This document shows, in pieces, positions 3,172 to 62,996 of a stretch of 64,000 bases of DNA; the first letter of the stretch is position 1, and each line of letters begins with the position of its first letter. The translations under genes and the position numbers were made by a program. The notes under the pieces were generated by a model. The model was not told the origin of the DNA. It searched no databases and worked only from the letters and a program-made list of their open reading frames with translations. The DNA comes from Platycnemis pennipes (taxonomy: Eukaryota > Arthropoda > Insecta > Odonata > Platycnemididae). Where the stretch lies: positions 131,363,624 to 131,427,623 of the forward strand of contig OW121851.1 of the NCBI GenBank assembly GCA_933228895.1, read 5' to 3'.

Positions 3172-3436
3172 TTGAGACGTGCTCTTTTTATTTGTACCTT
3201 TAAGTGAGAAGTACTGAGTGATAAGGACGACGGAGGACATGCTGGTTCATTGCGGAGTTAATTTTTCCAATATGTATGTTTCCAACCCGATTTAAAACTT
3301 TATTATTTCTCATATCATCTATTCATTTTATCTTTCAGCATTTGCATTTACCTAAGGAACTGAATCAGTCGGCTTTACGGGTCTTAATGGCAGTAACTCC
3401 ACCATTCCACTTGAAGCGCTCTGATATACTCATAAA

Positions 3437-4036
3437 TTTATGGGATCCAAATGAATAGGGTTTGATCATAGAGCTAGAGTGTGCAGCGTAGAGCAGCTAG
3501 GTTTCTTAATATATGTTGCATTAGGTTTATTAGTGTATCAGAATTAATAGAAGAATTAGGTTGGGAAACATTGTCAGATCGTAGGTTAAAGTACAGATTA
3601 AATATATTGAAGAAATATAAAACGGATAGCTTTTCTGAAGATTTTGAATGCATACTAAAAACCCCTGCGTATCGTGCTATATTCGACCTTATAGATAAGA
3701 TTGTAGAGATAGATTGTCGTGCCGATAGATTCTAAATGTCATTTTCCCCGGAACTATAACGGAACAAAATAGGCAGTATAGCAAAGGGATGAAATATTGT
3801 TAGAGTAGGTGAAATATTGTTAGTTTAGTCTGTAGTGTATGATTCACACAATAAAAATTAATTATGTTTATTAATCTGTAGATACTAACCATTTAGCTGC
3901 ATGTCATCCTGTTATCTAACATGTTACCATGTAGTAGACTAGTTGCATGTTAATAGTGCATGCTTGGTGATCTTCATCCCCTGCCATAAACCCTCTCGGT
4001 GGCTTGCAGGGTATTGCATAGATGGAGATGTAGGTG
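3437..4036 (+). mobile_element. LINE family A, 5'-truncated copy
   Basis: Begins near WDPNE, then an in-frame stop, then a readable segment (3481-3735) with VQRRAARF, SELIEELGWETLSDRRLKYR and ILKTPAYRA. The 3' UTR and the conserved tail (CCCCTGCCATAAACCCTCTC, GGCTTGCAGGGTATTGCATA) follow, ending in a GATGGAGATGTAG repeat. Catalytic domains are absent. Confidence 0.85.
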
Positions 4037-4039
4037 TGA

Positions 4040-6410: not shown

Positions 6411-7303
6411 TACATCTACATCTACATCTACATCTACACGATACCCTGCAAGCCACCGCGAGGGTGTGTGGCAGGGGGTGAAGGTCACCAAGCATTCACT
6501 ACTAGCATGCAAGCAAGCAACTAAAGGGTCTCATGCAACTAGATTGTTAGTATCTATAGTATTTGAGGGGTTAATACATGCATCATGCACTACAGAATAC
6601 TCTAAAATATTTCCCCTACCTATCCCTTTCCTATGCTGCCTATTCTGTTCTCTTATAGTACGGGGGAAAAATGCCATTTTGAATCTATCTGTACGACAAT
6701 CTATCTCTCTAATCTTATTTATCTGGTCGAATCTAGCATAATACGCTGGTGTTTTCAATATGTGCCTAACATCTTCAGTAAAGCTATCCGATTGAAATTT
6801 CTCTAATAGATTTAATCTGAACTTTAACCTACGCTCTGATAATGATTCCCACCCTAATTCTTGTATTAATTCTGATACACTACTCAACCTATCGTAACAC
6901 CTTTTGACGAACCTAGCTGCTCTACGCTGCACACTGTCTAGTTCTCTCATCAAACCTAATTCATTAGGATCCCATACACTGGCTGCATACTCAAGGTGGG
7001 GCCTAACTAGTGAAAAGTAACATTGCTCTTTCGTCTTCTCATCGCATTTCCCAAGTACTCTTTTTATAAATCCTAGCTTTCTCTTCGCTCGGCCGCATAT
7101 TTCCCTTATGTGTCTTCCCCATGATAAATCTTTAGTGATTGTTACACCTAAATATCTTACGGTTTCAACGTTTTCGATCTTCGTGTTATTAATTCTATAG
7201 GATCGCTCTATCGAATTATTCCTCCTCCAAAAATTGATAGCTACACACTTTTTAAGGTTGAGTTCTAACTGCCATTTGTCGCACCACATACATGTTACTC
7301 GCA
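6411..7303 (-). mobile_element. LINE family A, best-preserved copy: reverse transcriptase C-terminal region
   Basis: The minus-strand open frame (7316-6531, 261 codons) is the longest family A reading in the window. It begins in the thumb-side region with WQLELNLKKCVAINF, then YLGVTITKDLSW, a GRAKRKLGFIKRVLG segment, YFSLVRPHLEYAASVWDPN, VQRRAARFVKRCYDRL, ELGWESLSERRLKFR and FKMAFFPRTIREQN near the C terminus. These motifs are familiar from CR1-like non-LTR retrotransposons. The palm with the catalytic aspartates and the endonuclease are absent, so the copy is 5'-truncated. The 3' end at 6411 carries a clean four-unit (CATCTA) repeat on the plus strand, the complement of (TAGATG)n, next to the conserved CTCGCGGTGGCTTGCAGGGT block. 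Intactness suggests it is among the younger copies here. Confidence 0.9.
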
Positions 7304-7354
7304 TTGTACGCACCACAGGTACATATTACTCATTACAATGGGCTGAGTAATGTC

Positions 7355-14344: not shown

Positions 14345-14873
14345 GGATTGGTTGCTAATTCATGCATCGTGCACTGCAGACTACTCTAACAATATTTCAC
14401 CCTCCTATCCCTTTGCTATGCTGCCCATTGTGTTCTCTTATAGTACGGGGGTAAATGACATTTTGAACCTATTGGTACGATAATCTTTCCTCCAATTATA
14501 TTTATATGGTCGAAAATAGCACAATACGCAGCGGTTTTTAATATATCTAACACCTTCAGTAAAGCTATCCTTTTTAAATTTCTGCCGGAGGTTAAATCTG
14601 TACTTTAACCTGCGATCTGATATTAATTCCCGACCTAATTTGTCTATTAATTCCGATACGCTACTAAACCTATCGTTAACCTTTAAACAAACCTAGCTGC
14701 ACCCTGTCTAGCTCTATGATCAAGCCTAATTCATTTGGATCCTATACACAGGCTGCATATTCACGGTGGAAGCTAACTAGTGAAAAGTTACTTCGCTCTT
14801 TTGTCTTCTCGTCACATTTCTCGAGTACCTACTCTTTTAATAAATCTTTGCTTTCCCTTGGCTCAGCCGCGTA
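14345..14873 (-). mobile_element. LINE family A, internal fragment
   Basis: The minus strand retains broken pieces of the C-terminal reverse transcriptase region. Recognisable on the plus strand are the complements of WDPNELG (ATTCATTTGGATCC), of the SVQ motif and of the YFSLV region (GTGAAAAGTTAC). The 3' tail is lost. Frameshifts are frequent. Confidence 0.75.
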
Positions 14874-15113
14874 TATGTATGTGGCTGTTAATGGCACGTA
14901 AGGACAACGGAATGCTGAAGGTTGCTATTGAAGCTAAATGCTGGGTGAGAGAGGATGAGGAAGAAAGAGGAAAGGTATTGTGGGTAGTGTGAAGAGGAGT
15001 AGGAATATTGAGGAGAGGAATAGCGTTGGGATGAAGCCTATAGATATAGACGTTGAACAGCCATAACCGCTCCAAGAAATCAGTCGATATTTTTATAACG
15101 ATATCAATAGAAT

Positions 15114-48956: not shown

Positions 48957-49112
48957 CATCTACCTCTACGACAACGTAATACCATGCGAGCCACCACGAA
49001 GGCGTGTGGCAAGGAGTGAAGATCACCAAACATGCATTACTTACATGCAAATAAGAGCTATAATGCTACAACTTCATGGAGAGATGTTAGATTTAAGAGT
49101 CGCGTACAATTA
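48957..49112 (-). repeat. LINE family A, 3' UTR fragment, opposite in orientation to the next copy
   Basis: Plus-strand CATCTACCTCTACGACAACG, GAGCCACCACGAAGGCGTGT and CACCAAACATGCATTACTTA show the inverted 3' block. It stops abruptly where a plus-strand copy begins, so two 3' ends point outward. Confidence 0.7.
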
Positions 49113-49132
49113 GGCGGTAACGCACGCATAGC

Positions 49133-49970
49133 GGTGCGACAAATGGCAGTTAGAACTTAACCTTGAAAAGTGTGTAGCTATCAAATTTTGGAGGAGGAAT
49201 AATTCGATAGAGCGATCCTATAAAATTAATAACACCTAGATCGATAACGTTGAAACCATAAGGTATTTATGTGTTACAATCACTAAAGATTTATCGTTGG
49301 GAAGATCTATCCTGGAAATATGCGGCCGAGCGAAGAGAAAGCTAGGATTTATAAAAAGAATACTTGGAAAATGTGACGAGAAGACGAAAGAGCGATGTTA
49401 CTTTTCTCTAGTTAGGCCCCAACTTGAATATGCAGCCTTAGTATGGGATCCTATGAATTAAGTTTGATCAGAGAACTAGACTGTGCAGCGTAGAGCAGCT
49501 AGGTACGTTAGTTCGTTGAGTAGCGTTTCAGAATTAATAAAAGAATTTGGGTGGGAATCATTATCAGAGCGTAGGTTAAAGTACAGATTGAATCTATTAG
49601 AGGAATTTCAATCGAATAGCTTTACTGAAGATGTTAGGCACATAATAAAAAAAACCAGCGTATTATGATAGATTAGACCAGATAAATAAGATTAGAGAGG
49701 TGGATTGTGGTACTGACAGATTCAAAATGGCATTTTTCCCCCGTACTATAAGAGAACACAATGGGTAGCATAGCAAAGGGATAGGTAGGGGAAATATTTT
49801 AGAGTATTCTGTAGTGCATGATGCATGTATTAACCCCTTAAATACTATAGATACTAACAATCAAGTTGCATGAGACAATATAGTTGCTAGTTTGCATATT
49901 AGTAGTGCTTGCTTGGTGATCTTCACCCTTTGCCACACACCCTTGCTTGCAGGAAATCGTGTAGATGTAG
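49133..49970 (+). mobile_element. LINE family A, long decayed copy
   Basis: Starts at the WQLELNLEKCVAIKFWRRNN region and passes a YLGVTITKDLS-like segment, GRAKRKLGFIKRILGKCDEK, and YFSLVRPQLEYAALVWDP. It continues to VQRRAARY and ELGWESLSERRLKYR-type sequence before the 3' UTR and a GTAGATGTAGATG tail. Several small deletions break the frame. It closely parallels the 6411-7303 copy. Confidence 0.85.
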
Positions 49971-50480
49971 ATGTTAAAAGGTGTTATGATTGGTTGAGTA
50001 GTGTATCTCAATTAATACAAGAATTAGGGTGGGAATCATCATCAGAGCGTAAGGTCAACGTACAAATTAAATCTATTAGAGAAATTCAGATCGCAAAGCT
50101 TTACTTAAGATGTTAGGCATACATTAAAAACACCAGCGTATTATGCTAGATTCTACCAGCTAAACAAGTTTCAAGAGATAGATTGTCGTACTGATAGATA
50201 CAAAATGTCATTTTTACCCGTTCTATAAGAGAACACAATGGGTAGCATAGCGAAAGGGATTTAGGTAGGGTAGATGAAATATTTTAGCCTTTAGTGCATT
50301 ATGCATGCATTAACAACCAATTTCTTTATTACTCTGTAGATACTAACCATCTAACTGAATGCGACCCTAATTTTTCTTGCAGTAGATTGTTTGCATGTCA
50401 ATAGTGCATGGCTGGTGACCCTCATCCCCTGCCACACACCCTCGCGGTGGCTTTCAGGGTATCGAGCACATGTAGATGTC
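49971..50480 (+). mobile_element. LINE family A copy abutting the previous tail
   Basis: Begins directly at the end of the previous TAGATG tail with a KRCYDWLSSVSQLIQELGWE segment. It ends in CATCCCCTGCCACACACCCT and CGCGGTGGCTTTCAGGGTAT plus a short ATGTAGATGT tail. Strongly 5'-truncated. Confidence 0.8.
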
Positions 50481-53668: not shown

Positions 53669-53795
53669 ATTGTCCGAAGACTAGAAAATCCAAATGCCAA
53701 AATAATTATTGAAAACGATATCTCCGGAGAGGGATAAAGGAGATATCGTTTTCCATAATTAATTTGGCATTTGGATTTTCTAGTCTTCGGACAAT
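53669..53795. repeat. Near-perfect long hairpin, 57-bp arms
   Basis: Arms 53669-53725 and 53739-53795 are inverted copies with two mismatches and a 13-base loop (GGAGAGGGATAAA region). They start ATTGTCCGAAGACTAGAAAA and end GATATCTCC. It lies immediately downstream of the Penelope endonuclease remnant and may be part of its 3' region. Confidence 0.85.
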
Positions 53796-57929: not shown

Positions 57930-57954
57930 TAGGGTAAAGGGGGGTGAATCGGAC

Positions 57955-57959
57955 CAGCG
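57955..57959 (+). repeat. Transib target-site duplication, left (CAGCG)
   Basis: CAGCG directly precedes the terminal CACTGTG and is repeated at 61831-61835 directly after the right end. A 5-bp GC-rich duplication is characteristic of Transib. Confidence 0.95.
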
Positions 57960-57997
57960 CACTGTGGTCTGAAATCGGATATAGCCGGACAAAAGTC
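57960..57997 (+). promoter_or_regulatory. RSS-like transposase recognition site, left end
   Basis: Heptamer CACTGTG (57960-57966), 22-bp spacer, then ACAAAAGTC (57989-57997). The vertebrate RSS is CACAGTG, a 12- or 23-bp spacer, then ACAAAAACC, so six of seven and seven of nine positions agree. RSS-like Transib ends are known in the family; the match here is read directly. Confidence 0.75.
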
Positions 57998-58636
57998 CAA
58001 AATTGCTTCTTTTGAGGTACACACTTGAAACTTGTCATAAACGCTCAGAATTGATCACTGATCATGGAACAATAAGCCATTTTTGGATGATCTCATCCGT
58101 TTTTCAGGTACAGAGGCCCGAACTTGGCCAAGTTTCCAAAAACACACCCGATCTTGCTTTTCTTCAAAAATATTTGAAGTTAAGTTGCTGGTGGAGTTTT
58201 GGAAGGATTTTTATGAAGTAAAAAACATTATATTCCGGTAATATGGTACTTTATCTATATTATCTGTTAGTTTCGAAGATTTTGGTTAATATTAGTGTGG
58301 TATTACGTCGCAAAATGGCGGACCCTTTTTCCGGGTAAAATTTGACATAAAGTAGACAATATCTTTAGTTTAAGAAAATTGCCACCGCAAAAACTTTCAT
58401 GAAAGTATGTAACAAAGATATTTTAAGAATGTAAAGCAAAAATCTTGGAAAAAAGTTGGCGGCTGCGAAAATGAACGCAATTTTTCGATCGCGCTTCACG
58501 GCACGGCTCCGCGACGCGGTGACTCCGTTGGATATTTCAAGTTGTTTGGAACTAATTATTGAAAATTGTCATTTTAACCATGGTATACAGTCTCTATTGA
58601 CCTGAAATACTATATTGAAGGTATTACGAGGATATT
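57960..58636 (+). repeat. Transib left terminal inverted repeat, 677 bp
   Basis: Matches the right arm base for base in length. I count about four mismatches (for example TTTTTCAGG versus TTTTTGAGG, CCCGAAC versus CCCAAAC). A 72-codon frame (58003-58221) lies in it and, inverted, in the right arm; it has no known domain and is treated as incidental. Confidence 0.95.
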
Positions 58637-59370
58637 GGATTGATCGAATTGATCACTGAACGCGTGACTCTGGTATACATGCTCTGGTTTGTATACTATA
58701 CGGATTCTTGCCGCATGTTGGAACATCTTTTGGTGCAGAATTTAAGTTTTCACGCGAAAGGTACCCTACACATTTACCAGGAAAGGCAACAGTCAGAGAT
58801 TCTTCTTCTACTCCTTACCCTTTTCACACTTGCCGAGGAGGAACGTGCGAAAAGGGGCTTTTTATGACACCGCGCAGCCTTTAACGGGTATTTCCGAAGG
58901 GCTTTTTCCTTTTCCCTTCAAAAACGCATTTTAGCTGGCAGTTCTTATTTGGATTTGGAGGATGAGTGTTGTGCCTGTAGTGATTTAGTGATTTGCTAAA
59001 ATCTGTGTGTGTCTAGTGAATTGATTCGTCATTGAATATATATCATATACACGTACATGGAATATACATATATATCATTGAATTAGTTTCGCTGTTTATT
59101 TCCTGTGTTGGTCAGCGGTGTTTCTGGTTTACTCAATAGTCTTTCTTTTTCAAGGTTAGTATTTTGAATATAATTTTCAGTATCGCTATTTTATCTTAGC
59201 ATTTCACTCCGACGCTTATAATATTCCTTTTTATAAAGCTTCACGGCGTTTTTTCGCCGATCTTATATTATGGAAAATATAATCGTGAAAGGTATTCATC
59301 GTGCGACTTTCATTACATAATTTTATCTGTCGGATCCATACACAGATTTTTTGTGTTGTCCAGCTCTGAA

Positions 59371-61153
59371 ATGACATCATATCAGATCACACGTTTGGAG
59401 CTACACAACAAGATAATTGAGATGAAAGGAAAATCATTGCACGATAAAAAAATATTCTTGCTGGTTTGTTATCTCGGACTTTGAATTTAGAGAATCATTT
59501 CGATGCCCTAGATAGTCTCCGTGAATTTCTATGAAGGTTCTTGGTATATTACCAGAAAAAGTGGGAAGAATGTTTTCAAAAAAACGAGCAATTTTTAGCT
59601 CGCAATAATGCATGGCTCAAAGAGCCAATTATTTTCCCGGAAGCAGTCCGTGAGTACCTACCAGGTACTTCTACAATGACCGGAATGTATTTTCTGATTT
59701 ATTTCTTTTGCCCAATATCATGGACGAAGGTTTTTACATGGAATTTATATCTTAACATTATTGATTCATTAGGTTCATTGGGGCGACCAAAAAAAGGTTT
59801 TAGGACTTCCTCAGACAGGTCAAAAAGAAGAAAAGTCCAAAATATTGAAAGTTCTTCCTCTCCTGCCGAGCTCGCATTGGCAGCCTCTTGGCAGAGAGGA
59901 AGGTGATAGTGCTACCGCTCAACTTCTCATGGAAGTAACGACTACCACTCCCACTAGAGCAAGAAGAATTCTCACTAGGTGGAGGAAAAAAGATGAGATG
60001 CAGTCGGAGATGTCGCCAGAGGAGGCTCTATCTCTGATGATCACCACTGAGCTGACAAAGAATCAGTATAATTGCTCCGCTCTTAGTTACGGGCACAACC
60101 TGTAACCTAGCTATGTGCGAGTGTTAAATGCAAAAAGCGCTGCATACCCCGAAGGAATACACATAACAGAAAACATTAGCGAAGTGAGTTTACAAGATCT
60201 ATTGAACCATACAGAATCGCGGATACTGACATGCGTTTCCACGACTCTAGCATCCGGCAACAAAGTAAATTGCACATTAATTTGCAAGTATGGATTTGAT
60301 GGGAGTTCGGGCCTTTCTCAATATAAACAGTTGTGGGAAGAAGCAGATACTTCAGATGAATATTTATTTATGAGCGAAATGGTGCCACTTCGTTTGCTGA
60401 ATGACGCAACTGGTACGAGCTTAAGGCATTTCTTGTTTCATACCTTGTTTATCTTTGGCCAATCTGATAGCAGTACAGTTGAGTACCAATAATATATTAA
60501 CTATTTTAGATGAGATTATCTGGAAAAATCCTCGCCCGTCGTCAACCATATTTTGCCGGCCCATTCGCCTTCAGTGGCTAAAAGAAACCAAGGAAGTTGC
60601 TATGGCGGAAAGGAATTATGTACAAAAGCAGATAGACGGCTTAAAAAATTGGAATTGGGGAAATTATTCTGTTAATTTCAGCTTGCTTCTGAGCATGATA
60701 GATAGAAAGGTAAGGATTTTCCCTATTTTTAAATTGATGGACAAGTAAATGGTGGTGGATATTGTAAAACAAATCTATAAAAACATTTTTTAGGTATGCA
60801 ATGCATTGACTGATTGTGCTACTATGAGGTGCTACATCTGCGGAGCGAAAGCTTCCCAGATGAATGATTTAAGGGCAATGAAAGATCGACCAGCAGATGT
60901 TACTAAATATTCCTTTGGTCTGTCTACCCTATACTGCTATATTCGGTTTTTCGAATGCGTATTGCACATATCGTATCGACTGGAGTTAAAACAGGGGCAG
61001 GTGAGAAATAATCCAAACAAGCTGGAAACTGTATTTAAGGTAAAATAAATATCTTTAATGATAAATAAATAATGATAAATCTCTTAATAGGCCCGCGACA
61101 ACGTAAGAACACAGCTAACAGAAAAAAAGATTAGCATTCAGAAGGCATTTAGA
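59371..61153 (+). pseudogene. Transib transposase (RAG1 core-like), truncated and frameshifted, five exon segments
   Basis: ATG at 59371 opens MTSYQITRLELHNKIIEMKG, a typical Transib start. After two frame breaks (near 59480 and 59495) and a TGA (59532), KKWEECFQKNEQFLARNNAW runs to 59664. Four GT-AG introns are placed by reading continuity: 59665-59772, 60413-60509, 60710-60793 and 61040-61090. The second segment (GRPKKGF) shifts frame near 59890 and has a TAA at 60103 where PSYVRVLNAK continues. Catalytic Asp 1 lies in KYGFDGSSG (codon 60298-60300) and Asp 2 in SMIDRKV (60701-60703). The CYIC zinc-type pair follows at 60830, then LSTLYCYIRFFECVLHISYR. Reading reaches EKKISIQKAFRNI at the right repeat boundary. 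The C-terminal part with the third acidic residue is missing. Confidence 0.9.
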
Positions 61154-61830
61154 AATATCCTCGTAATACCTTCAATATAGTATTTCAGGTCAATAGAGAC
61201 TGTATACCATGGTTAAAATGACAATTTTCAATAATTAGTTCCAAACAACTTGAAATATCCAACGGAGTCACCGCGTCGCGGAGCCGTGCCGTGAAGCGCG
61301 ATCGAAAAATTGCGTTCATTTTCGCAGCCGCAAACTTTTTTCCAAGATTTTTGCTTTACATTCTTAAAATATCTTTGTTACATACTTTCATGAAAGTTTT
61401 TGCGGTGGCAATTTTCTTAAACTAAAGATATTGTCTACTTTATGTCAAATTTTACCCGGAAAAAGGGTCCGCCATTTTGCGACGTAATACCACACTAATA
61501 TTAACCAAAATCTTCGAAACTAACAGATAATATAGATAAAGTACCATATTACCGGAATATAATGTTTTTTACTTCATAAAAATCCTTCCAAAACTCCACC
61601 AGCAGCTTAACTTCAAATATTTTTGAAGAAAAGCAAGATCGGGTGTGTTTTTGGAAACTTGGCCAAGTTTGGGCCTCTGTACCTCAAAAACGGATGAGAT
61701 CATCCAAAAATGGCTTATTGTTCCATGATCAGTGATCAATTCTGAGCGTTTATGACAAGTTTCAAGTGTGTACCTCAAAAGAAGCAATTTTGGACTTTTG
61801 TCCGGCTATATCCGATTTCAGACCACAGTG
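61154..61830 (-). repeat. Transib right terminal inverted repeat, 677 bp
   Basis: Inverted copy of 57960-58636 without indels. It begins exactly where transposase reading stops (after FRN, 61153), so it appears to replace the original 3' coding part and terminus. The terminal RSS-like site is 61793-61830 in inverted orientation. Confidence 0.95.
61793..61830 (-). promoter_or_regulatory. RSS-like transposase recognition site, right end
   Basis: On the minus strand, heptamer CACTGTG (61830-61824), a 22-bp spacer and ACAAAAGTC (61801-61793) are identical to the left end. Confidence 0.75.
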
Positions 61831-61835
61831 CAGCG
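61831..61835 (+). repeat. Transib target-site duplication, right (CAGCG)
   Basis: Identical to 57955-57959 and directly adjacent to the element end. Confidence 0.95.
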
Positions 61836-62996
61836 GGTGAATAGGAACGCTTTTCAAAAAGTGCGCTCAGACCCGAAACGGTATCACTTGAGACTGACTA
61901 CGTTTTAGGAATTGCTTCTTTGTAATCTTGTCCTTCTAGTAGAGTGAAAACGAGAACTCGACGACTGAATTTAAGCAAATGATACTCTGTCGAATGGAAG
62001 CCTACCATACGAGAGAGGTGTGAAATTGGGTATTTAGAAAACCTCGTATAGGTTCAAAGTAAGGTGACATTGTAGCGCTTACTCAGATTTCAAGTTTTTC
62101 TTTCCTGAAAGGAAATCTAATACCATAGCTGCCACATTAGGTTACTTTTTTGAGCCTTGTATGAATATCGGAGTTACCAAACATGATACAAAATCATATT
62201 ACTTAGTCGGGTGAAAAGGACCAGCACGCGCAGGAGTTCAGTTCCAAGTCGCTGATCGAGGGTGAAGCATTGAACCAGTTATACTCAACTGACACTTGGA
62301 AAAATTCCTTCTGCTACTGAAAAGTAAGTAGATATACAACTAATATTGATAAATTGCTTACTTACACTTAATGTTTTACATTAAAAACATCAAATGTTTA
62401 TAAGAATGTTTGAGCGATAGTGGCTAAAAATTTGTTTTTAGGCCATACTCTTTTATTTAAGTATTATAAGAAGTTTAATGGAATAAACCTATTTTAATGC
62501 TATTCTATATCACGTTATAGATATTTACTACGTATAACGAGGAGGAGGAAAGAGATTTTCCCCGTCATAGAGGTGAATTATTACGGCGACGAGCACGATT
62601 TACAGGCTGAGCGAGAGGTAAGCTACCTTCGTTTGATGTAACATATGTTGTGTACTGTTCCATATATATTAACCAATTATTCGCTGAAACAATATCATAA
62701 AACATACGCATTTCGTGATGGAAATTTATTGTTAATAATTCACATTGAGTTCCATACCTATACATTCTACATTACTCAGTGGTCTATATTTTCCAATCTG
62801 AAAGAAAAGGAGGTGATATAATGTACGTGATAGAGGGATTGCCAGAGTATTAAATATTATATATGGCAACAGAATTAGTTGTGGAACGCCTTACAACCTC
62901 CTTTTGATAGCGTAACATTAGCAAAATTTCATTTAAAACGTATTTATGAAAGTGATAATTTTCACTTACCGTTAATGTTTTTCCTTTTGGATTAAG
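61836..62996. other. Presumed 5' region of the pogo-like element
   Basis: No convincing frame links this stretch to the transposase. The bases before the ATG at 62997 (TTTTTCCTTTTGGATTAAG) could act as a 3' splice site, so an upstream non-coding exon is possible. The minus-strand frame 62765-62565 is treated separately. Confidence 0.35.
62565..62765 (-). pseudogene. Possible piggyBac-like transposase C-terminal remnant
   Basis: The frame includes NFHHEMRMFYDIVSANNWLI and ends PVNRARRRNNSPL. The MRMFYDIVSANNWLIY stretch resembles the segment near the end of the piggyBac catalytic domain (WP-R-FY...N-W/A-IY). No catalytic Asp block or Cys-rich tail was seen, so this is tentative and may be chance. 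Confidence 0.25.

Follow-up and report, generated by a model that had tools for sequence, protein, structure and literature searches.

The subject of this study is a DNA transposon of the Transib superfamily in the odonate Platycnemis pennipes. It lies in a 64,000-bp stretch of contig OW121851.1 (assembly GCA_933228895.1, positions 131,363,624 to 131,427,623), referred to below as the window, where it occupies positions 57960–61830 and is flanked by perfect 5-bp target site duplications (TSDs) of CAGCG. The element begins with CACTGTG and ends with CACAGTG, and these termini are the outer ends of two terminal inverted repeats (TIRs, or arms) of 677 bp, which are separated by four substitutions (left-arm positions 58105, 58120, 58185, and 58458) and by no indels. 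Three of the four mismatches are clustered, to a degree that is not significant (P 0.13). The ends, the duplication, and the indel-free arms had been called in a sequence-only reading of the window, and all of them are present as described. The length of 677 bp holds for the window copy only: in the family to which it belongs, the arms measure 734–735 bp in 20 other copies and about 1,019 bp in two full-length ones. The features of the insertion are as follows.

57955–57959, no strand: left TSD, CAGCG, perfect
57960–57997, plus strand: end resembling a recombination signal sequence (RSS), with heptamer CACTGTG, 22-bp spacer, and nonamer-like ACAAAAGTC
57960–58636, plus strand: left TIR as kept in the window copy, 677 bp, lacking 15 bp that are missing from the right arm as well
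58637–58679, plus strand: remainder of the 735-bp left arm, whose right-hand partner was removed by an internal deletion in the window copy
59371–59664, plus strand: transposase exon 1, with start codon at 59371, frameshift near 59470, and TGA stop at 59532–59534
59773–60412, plus strand: transposase exon 2, with frameshift near 59888–59893, TAA stop at 60103–60105, and codon of the first catalytic Asp at 60298–60300
60510–60709, plus strand: transposase exon 3, with codon of the second catalytic Asp at 60701–60703 (SMIDRK)
60794–61039, plus strand: transposase exon 4, with the CYIC zinc motif
61091–61153, plus strand: transposase exon 5, ending after ...IQKAFR, where an internal deletion has removed about 290 bp (corresponding to positions 3210–3499 of copy L009)
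61154–61830, minus strand: right TIR, 677 bp left out of 735
61831–61835, no strand: right TSD, CAGCG, perfect

Ends and transposase gene of the window copy

Both arms begin with CACTGTGG, and ACAAAAGTC follows after the 22-bp spacer. The latter motif agrees with seven of the nine letters of the RSS nonamer, for which the consensus ACAAAAACC was used for scoring; base shuffling yields such agreement in about 0.9% of cases. The window element has the RSS-like heptamer at CAC ends and the second, A-rich motif that mark a Transib. Self-comparison of the arm disclosed no internal tandem repeats. The left and right flanks of the insertion differ from each other, and no second copy of either is found elsewhere in the window. 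The insertion site itself falls within a short and imperfect tandem repeat, which reads GGGTGAATCGGACC at 57942–57955, left of the element, and GGGTGAATAGGAAC at 61835–61848, right of it, with a third near copy at 62209–62222; a near copy 10–40 bp downstream is expected for about 0.4% of random 14-mers (15 of 4,000).

Three reading frames of the window match the transposase HzTransib (PDB 6PQN) consecutively, at residues 44–144 (E 3e-12), 141–212 (E 3e-10), and 212–284 (E 3e-11). This comparison, which had been proposed as a check, agrees with the earlier assignment of the element to Transib, and the motifs KYGFDGSSG, SMIDRKV, and CYIC that accompanied the assignment are present in the translations. 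Transposase homologues numbered 441 at E ≤ 0.001; among the matches listed, the named ones were from insects, and the nearest named transposases were from Odonata (Ladona fulva, 62%; Ischnura elegans, 50%). Pfam returned nothing above cut-off for either the window pieces or the full transposase. Profile searches gave 115 and 30 pattern matches in viral contigs and 45 in genome contigs, none of which was confirmed, and the 22-base element end had no match in the viral contigs.

The exon-intron structure of the gene is readable, yet the gene carries two frameshifts and two stops. Moreover, homology to transposases stops at the inner border of the right arm, whereas the relative P0002 continues for 205 residues further and includes the catalytic Glu (E595, aligned with HzTransib E436; the Asp-Asp-Glu (DDE) residues of HzTransib were taken from an excerpt of PMC6941560). 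Nothing else in the window matched the C-terminal part of the transposase significantly (best E 0.09). From the window alone, a border that coincides exactly with the end of homology, together with the loss of the last 205 residues of P0002, would fit a single accident in which the right end of a short-TIR Transib was replaced by its inverted left end, with the junction located within the transposase gene. Near-perfect foldback arms are also a classic artefact of assembly, produced as an inverted duplication from chimeric or hairpin reads, and the present judgement is made from the assembled sequence.

Other long-arm copies in the genome

Copies were searched for in the same 1.79-Gb genome. 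The arm yielded 1,643 first-look candidates, 40 of which were scored; these 40 matches represent 24 elements including that of the window, and 20 of the 23 further elements were fetched. All 20 are 4,184–4,507 bp long (hereafter the 4.2-kb type), have arms of 734–735 bp with 98.9–99.9% identity to each other, and are flanked by perfect 5-bp TSDs that share the form C...G and vary in sequence. Together with the window copy they show pairwise identities of 97.8–100%, and two of them (L014 and L016) are the same over 4,204 bp at two different sites, which points to recent activity of the long-arm family. One copy of the 4.2-kb type (L019, C8:19975753-19980659) reaches 4,507 bp because about 290 bp are inserted in its interior.

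With the transposase piece as query, at least about 100 distinct places were obtained among the matches listed, nearly all at 79–98% identity (107 of 4,324 candidates scored). Five further copies were picked by protein, and four of them (L056, L057, L058, and L060) have a 735-bp arm at each end and perfect TSDs, namely CATCG, GTGCG, CTACT, and CAACG, respectively; two of these have the C...G form, from which GTGCG and CTACT deviate. The 5-bp TSD of a Transib is found at the window copy, at all 20 copies fetched by arm, and at these four.

Long arms are a trait of the family, not an accident of the window copy, as a survey of the genomic copies had been expected to decide (20 of 20 fetched by arm, four of five by protein). 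The replacement of a right end in a single copy is ruled out by the 20 long-armed copies, and the join in the window copy proves to mark the loss of about 290 bp from an element that was longer and already armed; there is practically no chance that the accident explains the arms. As far as the sequence tells, an artefact of assembly can be dismissed with the same firmness because the flanks differ, the arms end exactly at varied 5-bp TSDs in 20 of 20 copies, and substitutions separate the two arms. What the sequence-only reading had set against its own claim, that is, a unique assembly-induced copy beside short-armed relatives of the same family, is not what the fetched copies show.

Comparison among the copies also concerns the lesions of the transposase gene. 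The frameshift near 59470 is not present in L009, the TGA stop is common to 20 of the 21 copies, and the TAA stop occurs in four of the 21. The zone of the second frameshift is equal in length in all 21 copies, although L017 reads through it in one frame. Placement of the first frameshift in an A-run near 59455 was rejected, since that zone has the same length in all 21 copies and the comparison with L009 puts the frameshift near 59470.

Divergence between the two arms

The arms were compared over columns 1–731 in 20 copies, with 500 random re-pairings of arms. Divergence was 0.27% within a copy and 0.78% between copies, and the lowest value obtained by re-pairing was 0.58%. Among the copy-instances of variants common to several copies, 28 had the variant in both arms and eight in a single arm; for private variants the counts were 13 and 32, respectively. 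The lower divergence within copies and the sharing of variants by both arms suggest a gradual copying of one arm onto the other. Both arms of the window copy carry its 15-bp deletion, whereas none of the 20 other copies compared has it, which likewise argues for arms that evolve in concert.

The comparison was repeated with six copies picked by protein, not by arm (L053, L054, L056, L057, L058, and L060), in which the mean divergence was 0.49% within and 2.70% between copies. In four of the six the arms are 0–0.14% apart; in L054 and L056 they are 1.25% apart. Arm diversity in this set is 2.6–2.9%, versus 4.1% in the non-coding interior, while the lower arm diversity among the copies fetched by arm is confounded by sampling.

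The arms could be alike merely because the family spread very recently, with no conversion at all. The identity of 97.8–100% among 21 copies, the pair identical over 4,204 bp, and the divergent arms of L054 and L056 agree with such a spread, which nevertheless predicts that the arms differ at least as much within a copy as between copies. The observed values run the other way in both sets, including the older one picked by protein, the shared variants lie mostly in both arms, and the window copy has its 15-bp deletion in each of them; recent spread alone is thus quite improbable. Rather, the comparisons indicate that the arms of one copy evolve in concert, one arm overwriting the other. A test of lesion count against arm divergence was dropped because it assumed that the lesions had all arisen in the window copy and that no arm conversion takes place, both of which are false.

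Full-length members and derivation of the window copy

Two of the places found with the transposase piece, L053 and L054, extend into the C-terminal exon that the 4.2-kb type lacks. Each element is 5,354 bp long, with TSDs of CACCG and CGCTG, respectively; arm identity is 99.8% across 1,020 bp in L053 and 99.1% across 1,019 bp in L054. L054 has no stop, and six exons with GT-AG introns give a protein of 683 residues (alternatively, five exons give 719 residues with one in-frame intron kept), which matches HzTransib (6PQN) with an E value of 8e-119, aligned over residues 180–668. A search with the C-terminal exon found 100% identity at two places (L053 and L054), 89% at one (L063/L065), 91% over part of the exon at three, and weaker matches at others (40 of 95 candidates scored). 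In L064, which is among the 91% places, part of the C-terminal exon is preserved, together with a 735-bp right arm. Another relative, L066, is 87–90% identical to L054 and keeps about 900 bp of the right arm, which suggests that the long arm is old. A relative on C7 is cut off at both ends and gives no information on TIR length.

What the 4.2-kb type has lost relative to L054 is about 843 bp carrying the C-terminal exon, along with 284 bp on the inner side of the right arm, and the splice donor before the lost exon is GC in all 20 copies retaining the donor versus GT in L054. From the window copy about 290 bp more are gone, from the exon into the right arm, as well as 15 bp in each arm. Since the exon with the catalytic Glu is absent, neither the window copy nor the 4.2-kb copies have a complete DDE triad, and L014 and L016 have His at the second catalytic Asp. 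The two full-length copies also have an incomplete triad, with Asn for the second Asp. Such a triad bars any claim of autonomy for these copies, although it is a defect of the copies and not of the lineage. By these comparisons, the window element is a remnant, a deletion derivative of a deletion derivative, and the missing Glu suggests that the 4.2-kb type was already incapable of making an active transposase when it spread. The large arm of L066 favors the 1,019-bp arm over the 735-bp arm as the earlier form, in which case the border of the latter would have been set by deletion.

Short-TIR Transib families of the same genome

Twelve full-length copies of other Transib families in this genome (12 of 80 matches, in four groups by similarity and ends) served as controls. 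Their TIRs are 37–46 bp long in all 12, with identities of 80–93% (BLAST spans, which take in a few bases of the TSDs), and they have CACAGTGG ends and clean 5-bp TSDs. The arm length of the window family is as unusual for a Transib as had been claimed, given these controls and the 40–45-bp TIRs of Drosophila transib1-4 (PMC10299278, Table 1). By eye, the second motif is equally spaced at both ends of the control elements; GGACAAAA occurs at the spacing of the window element in two of the groups, and the remaining two have a stretch rich in A there. Near-identical and symmetrically spaced ends are hence not peculiar to the long-arm family, which weakens the earlier suggestion that the arms bear on how RAG-like transposases pair two identical ends. 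The distinctive properties of the family are arm length and concerted evolution. Many other full-length Transibs with long open frames are found in the genome (G000, L029–L040, and more listed), several of them in near-identical groups.

Other repeats of the window

A near-perfect palindrome of 127 bp (86.6% self-complementary) at 53669–53795 is possibly a small foldback element or a miniature inverted-repeat transposable element (MITE). Related repeat stretches lie at 6531–7325 (minus strand) and, for example, at 620–1141, 3439–4037, 14356–14874, and 49102–50479, and at least the first two encode reverse-transcriptase fragments of the long interspersed nuclear element type. The best homologue of 6531–7325 has 67% identity over 81% of the query.

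Discussion

The findings are best explained if the window element is dead and derives by deletion from a Transib lineage with TIRs of 0.7–1 kb, the arms of which are kept alike by conversion; we put the probability of this explanation at roughly 0.87. The long arms probably arose when an inverted copy of one end of an ancestral element, comprising a TIR of tens of base pairs and the adjoining DNA, overwrote the opposite end while a break or gap was being repaired, as has been proposed for Galileo. Internal deletions would then have produced the 4.2-kb type with its 735-bp arms and without the C-terminal exon. Because this type cannot make an active transposase, it would have multiplied with transposase supplied in trans, and gene conversion from arm to arm would hold the arms alike. 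Binding of the transposase would need only the outer 40 bp or so, and the remainder of the arm might be just passenger sequence.

The first long-arm ancestor could instead have had a composite origin, in which two opposed Transib copies were mobilized via their outer ends and then trimmed. This possibility concerns that ancestor only and is compatible with the later steps described above. Paired inverted left ends would yield the same outline, whereas the full-length copies have a single central transposase gene, and the comparisons made brought up no second transposase match or right end, no dedicated search for such remnants having been carried out. We consider a composite origin unlikely.

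A more specific form of the preferred explanation, deletion followed by upkeep of the arms through conversion, would tie the conversion to the transposition cycle, through repair of the gap or of a broken copy, and would have the burst driven wholly in trans by the transposase of another Transib family. The latter part is proposed because no long-arm copy seen has a complete catalytic triad. We offer this form tentatively, since it seems to us somewhat doubtful as a whole.

Several observations weigh against the preferred explanation. No closely related transposase with short TIRs was found, so that the step from short to long arms is inferred, and the 12 short-TIR controls are only 54–59% identical to the long-arm family over the C-terminal exon. 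The transposase gene of L053 has one frameshift, and both L053 and L054 have MINGK where relatives have MIDGK, which puts Asn in the position of the second catalytic Asp; none of the copies of the lineage seen here is accordingly a source of active transposase. One of the copies picked by protein, L059, has a single arm, and other related copies have lost one or both ends (both in L063/L065, and the outer 30 bp of the right arm in L066). The copies from the arm search were ranked by arm similarity, which biases their arm diversity downward. Homogenization is also uneven, because the 1.25% between the arms of L054 and of L056 exceeds the lowest between-copy value of 1.11%. Finally, the right inner border of the 735-bp arm falls in a microhomology of about 10 bp, and both deletion and extension fit such a border.

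The present study indicates that expansion of TIRs to the kilobase scale, which is known in P-type, MULE, and Foldback elements, takes place also in Transib, a group related to RAG1. One genome provides a natural series of full-length, C-terminally deleted, and further deleted elements with arms of 1,019, 735, and 677 bp, along with families having 40-bp ends as controls. The series makes testable the effect of long arms on cleavage and synapsis by a RAG-like transposase and on its silencing, in which long hairpin RNA might take part, as well as the homogenization of arms in living genomes.

By its transposase, TSD, and end motif, the long-arm family is a member of the Transib superfamily. It shares with HzTransib and Drosophila transib1-4 the homology of the whole catalytic region, the CAC heptamer ends, the 5-bp TSD mostly of the form C...G, and the RSS-like second motif, and differs in TIRs of 735–1,019 bp, as against the 40–45 bp of Drosophila transib1-4. 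A TIR of about 40 bp is typical of Transib without defining it, and the arms here measure 677, 734–735, and about 1,019 bp. Transib MITEs of Helicoverpa have TIRs of 13–57 bp according to excerpts of PMC7764229 and PMC9033116. HzTransib is said in an excerpt of PMC1852546 to have “long TIRs,” whose length is given only in a figure, and may be a partial precedent; with the exception of that figure, no Transib TIRs this long are described in the open PMC literature searched.

The RAG1-RAG2 and ProtoRAG systems have a similar RAG1-like catalytic core, and the C-terminal part of the L054 protein weakly matches ProtoRAG RAG1L (6B40, E 3e-5), while the long-arm transposase resembles HzTransib much more closely than it does RAG1L. 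Mutator-like elements (MULEs) and Foldback-type elements also have TIRs of hundreds of base pairs (14–500 bp for MULEs in an excerpt of PMC6446971) but use another transposase and have a longer TSD, of about 9 bp in the table entries consulted. The nearest parallel in arm structure is Galileo, of the P superfamily, for which the portion of PMC3573991 consulted reports TIRs of 18–1,250 bp, some lengthened where the inner flank was duplicated in inverted form, 98–100% identity between the TIRs of one copy, and many non-autonomous copies. Long and variable TIRs, high identity within a copy, and abundant non-autonomous copies are common to Galileo and the long-arm family. The transposases belong to different superfamilies, the solved-structure matches of the long-arm family being to a Transib transposase and not to one of P type, and some Galileo TIRs also grow through internal tandem repeats (PMC3573991, same portion), which were not seen in the Transib arm; the likeness is limited to the apparent growth of the arms. 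Long TIRs formed by inverted recruitment are already known in Galileo, and what appears to be new here is TIRs of kilobase scale in Transib.

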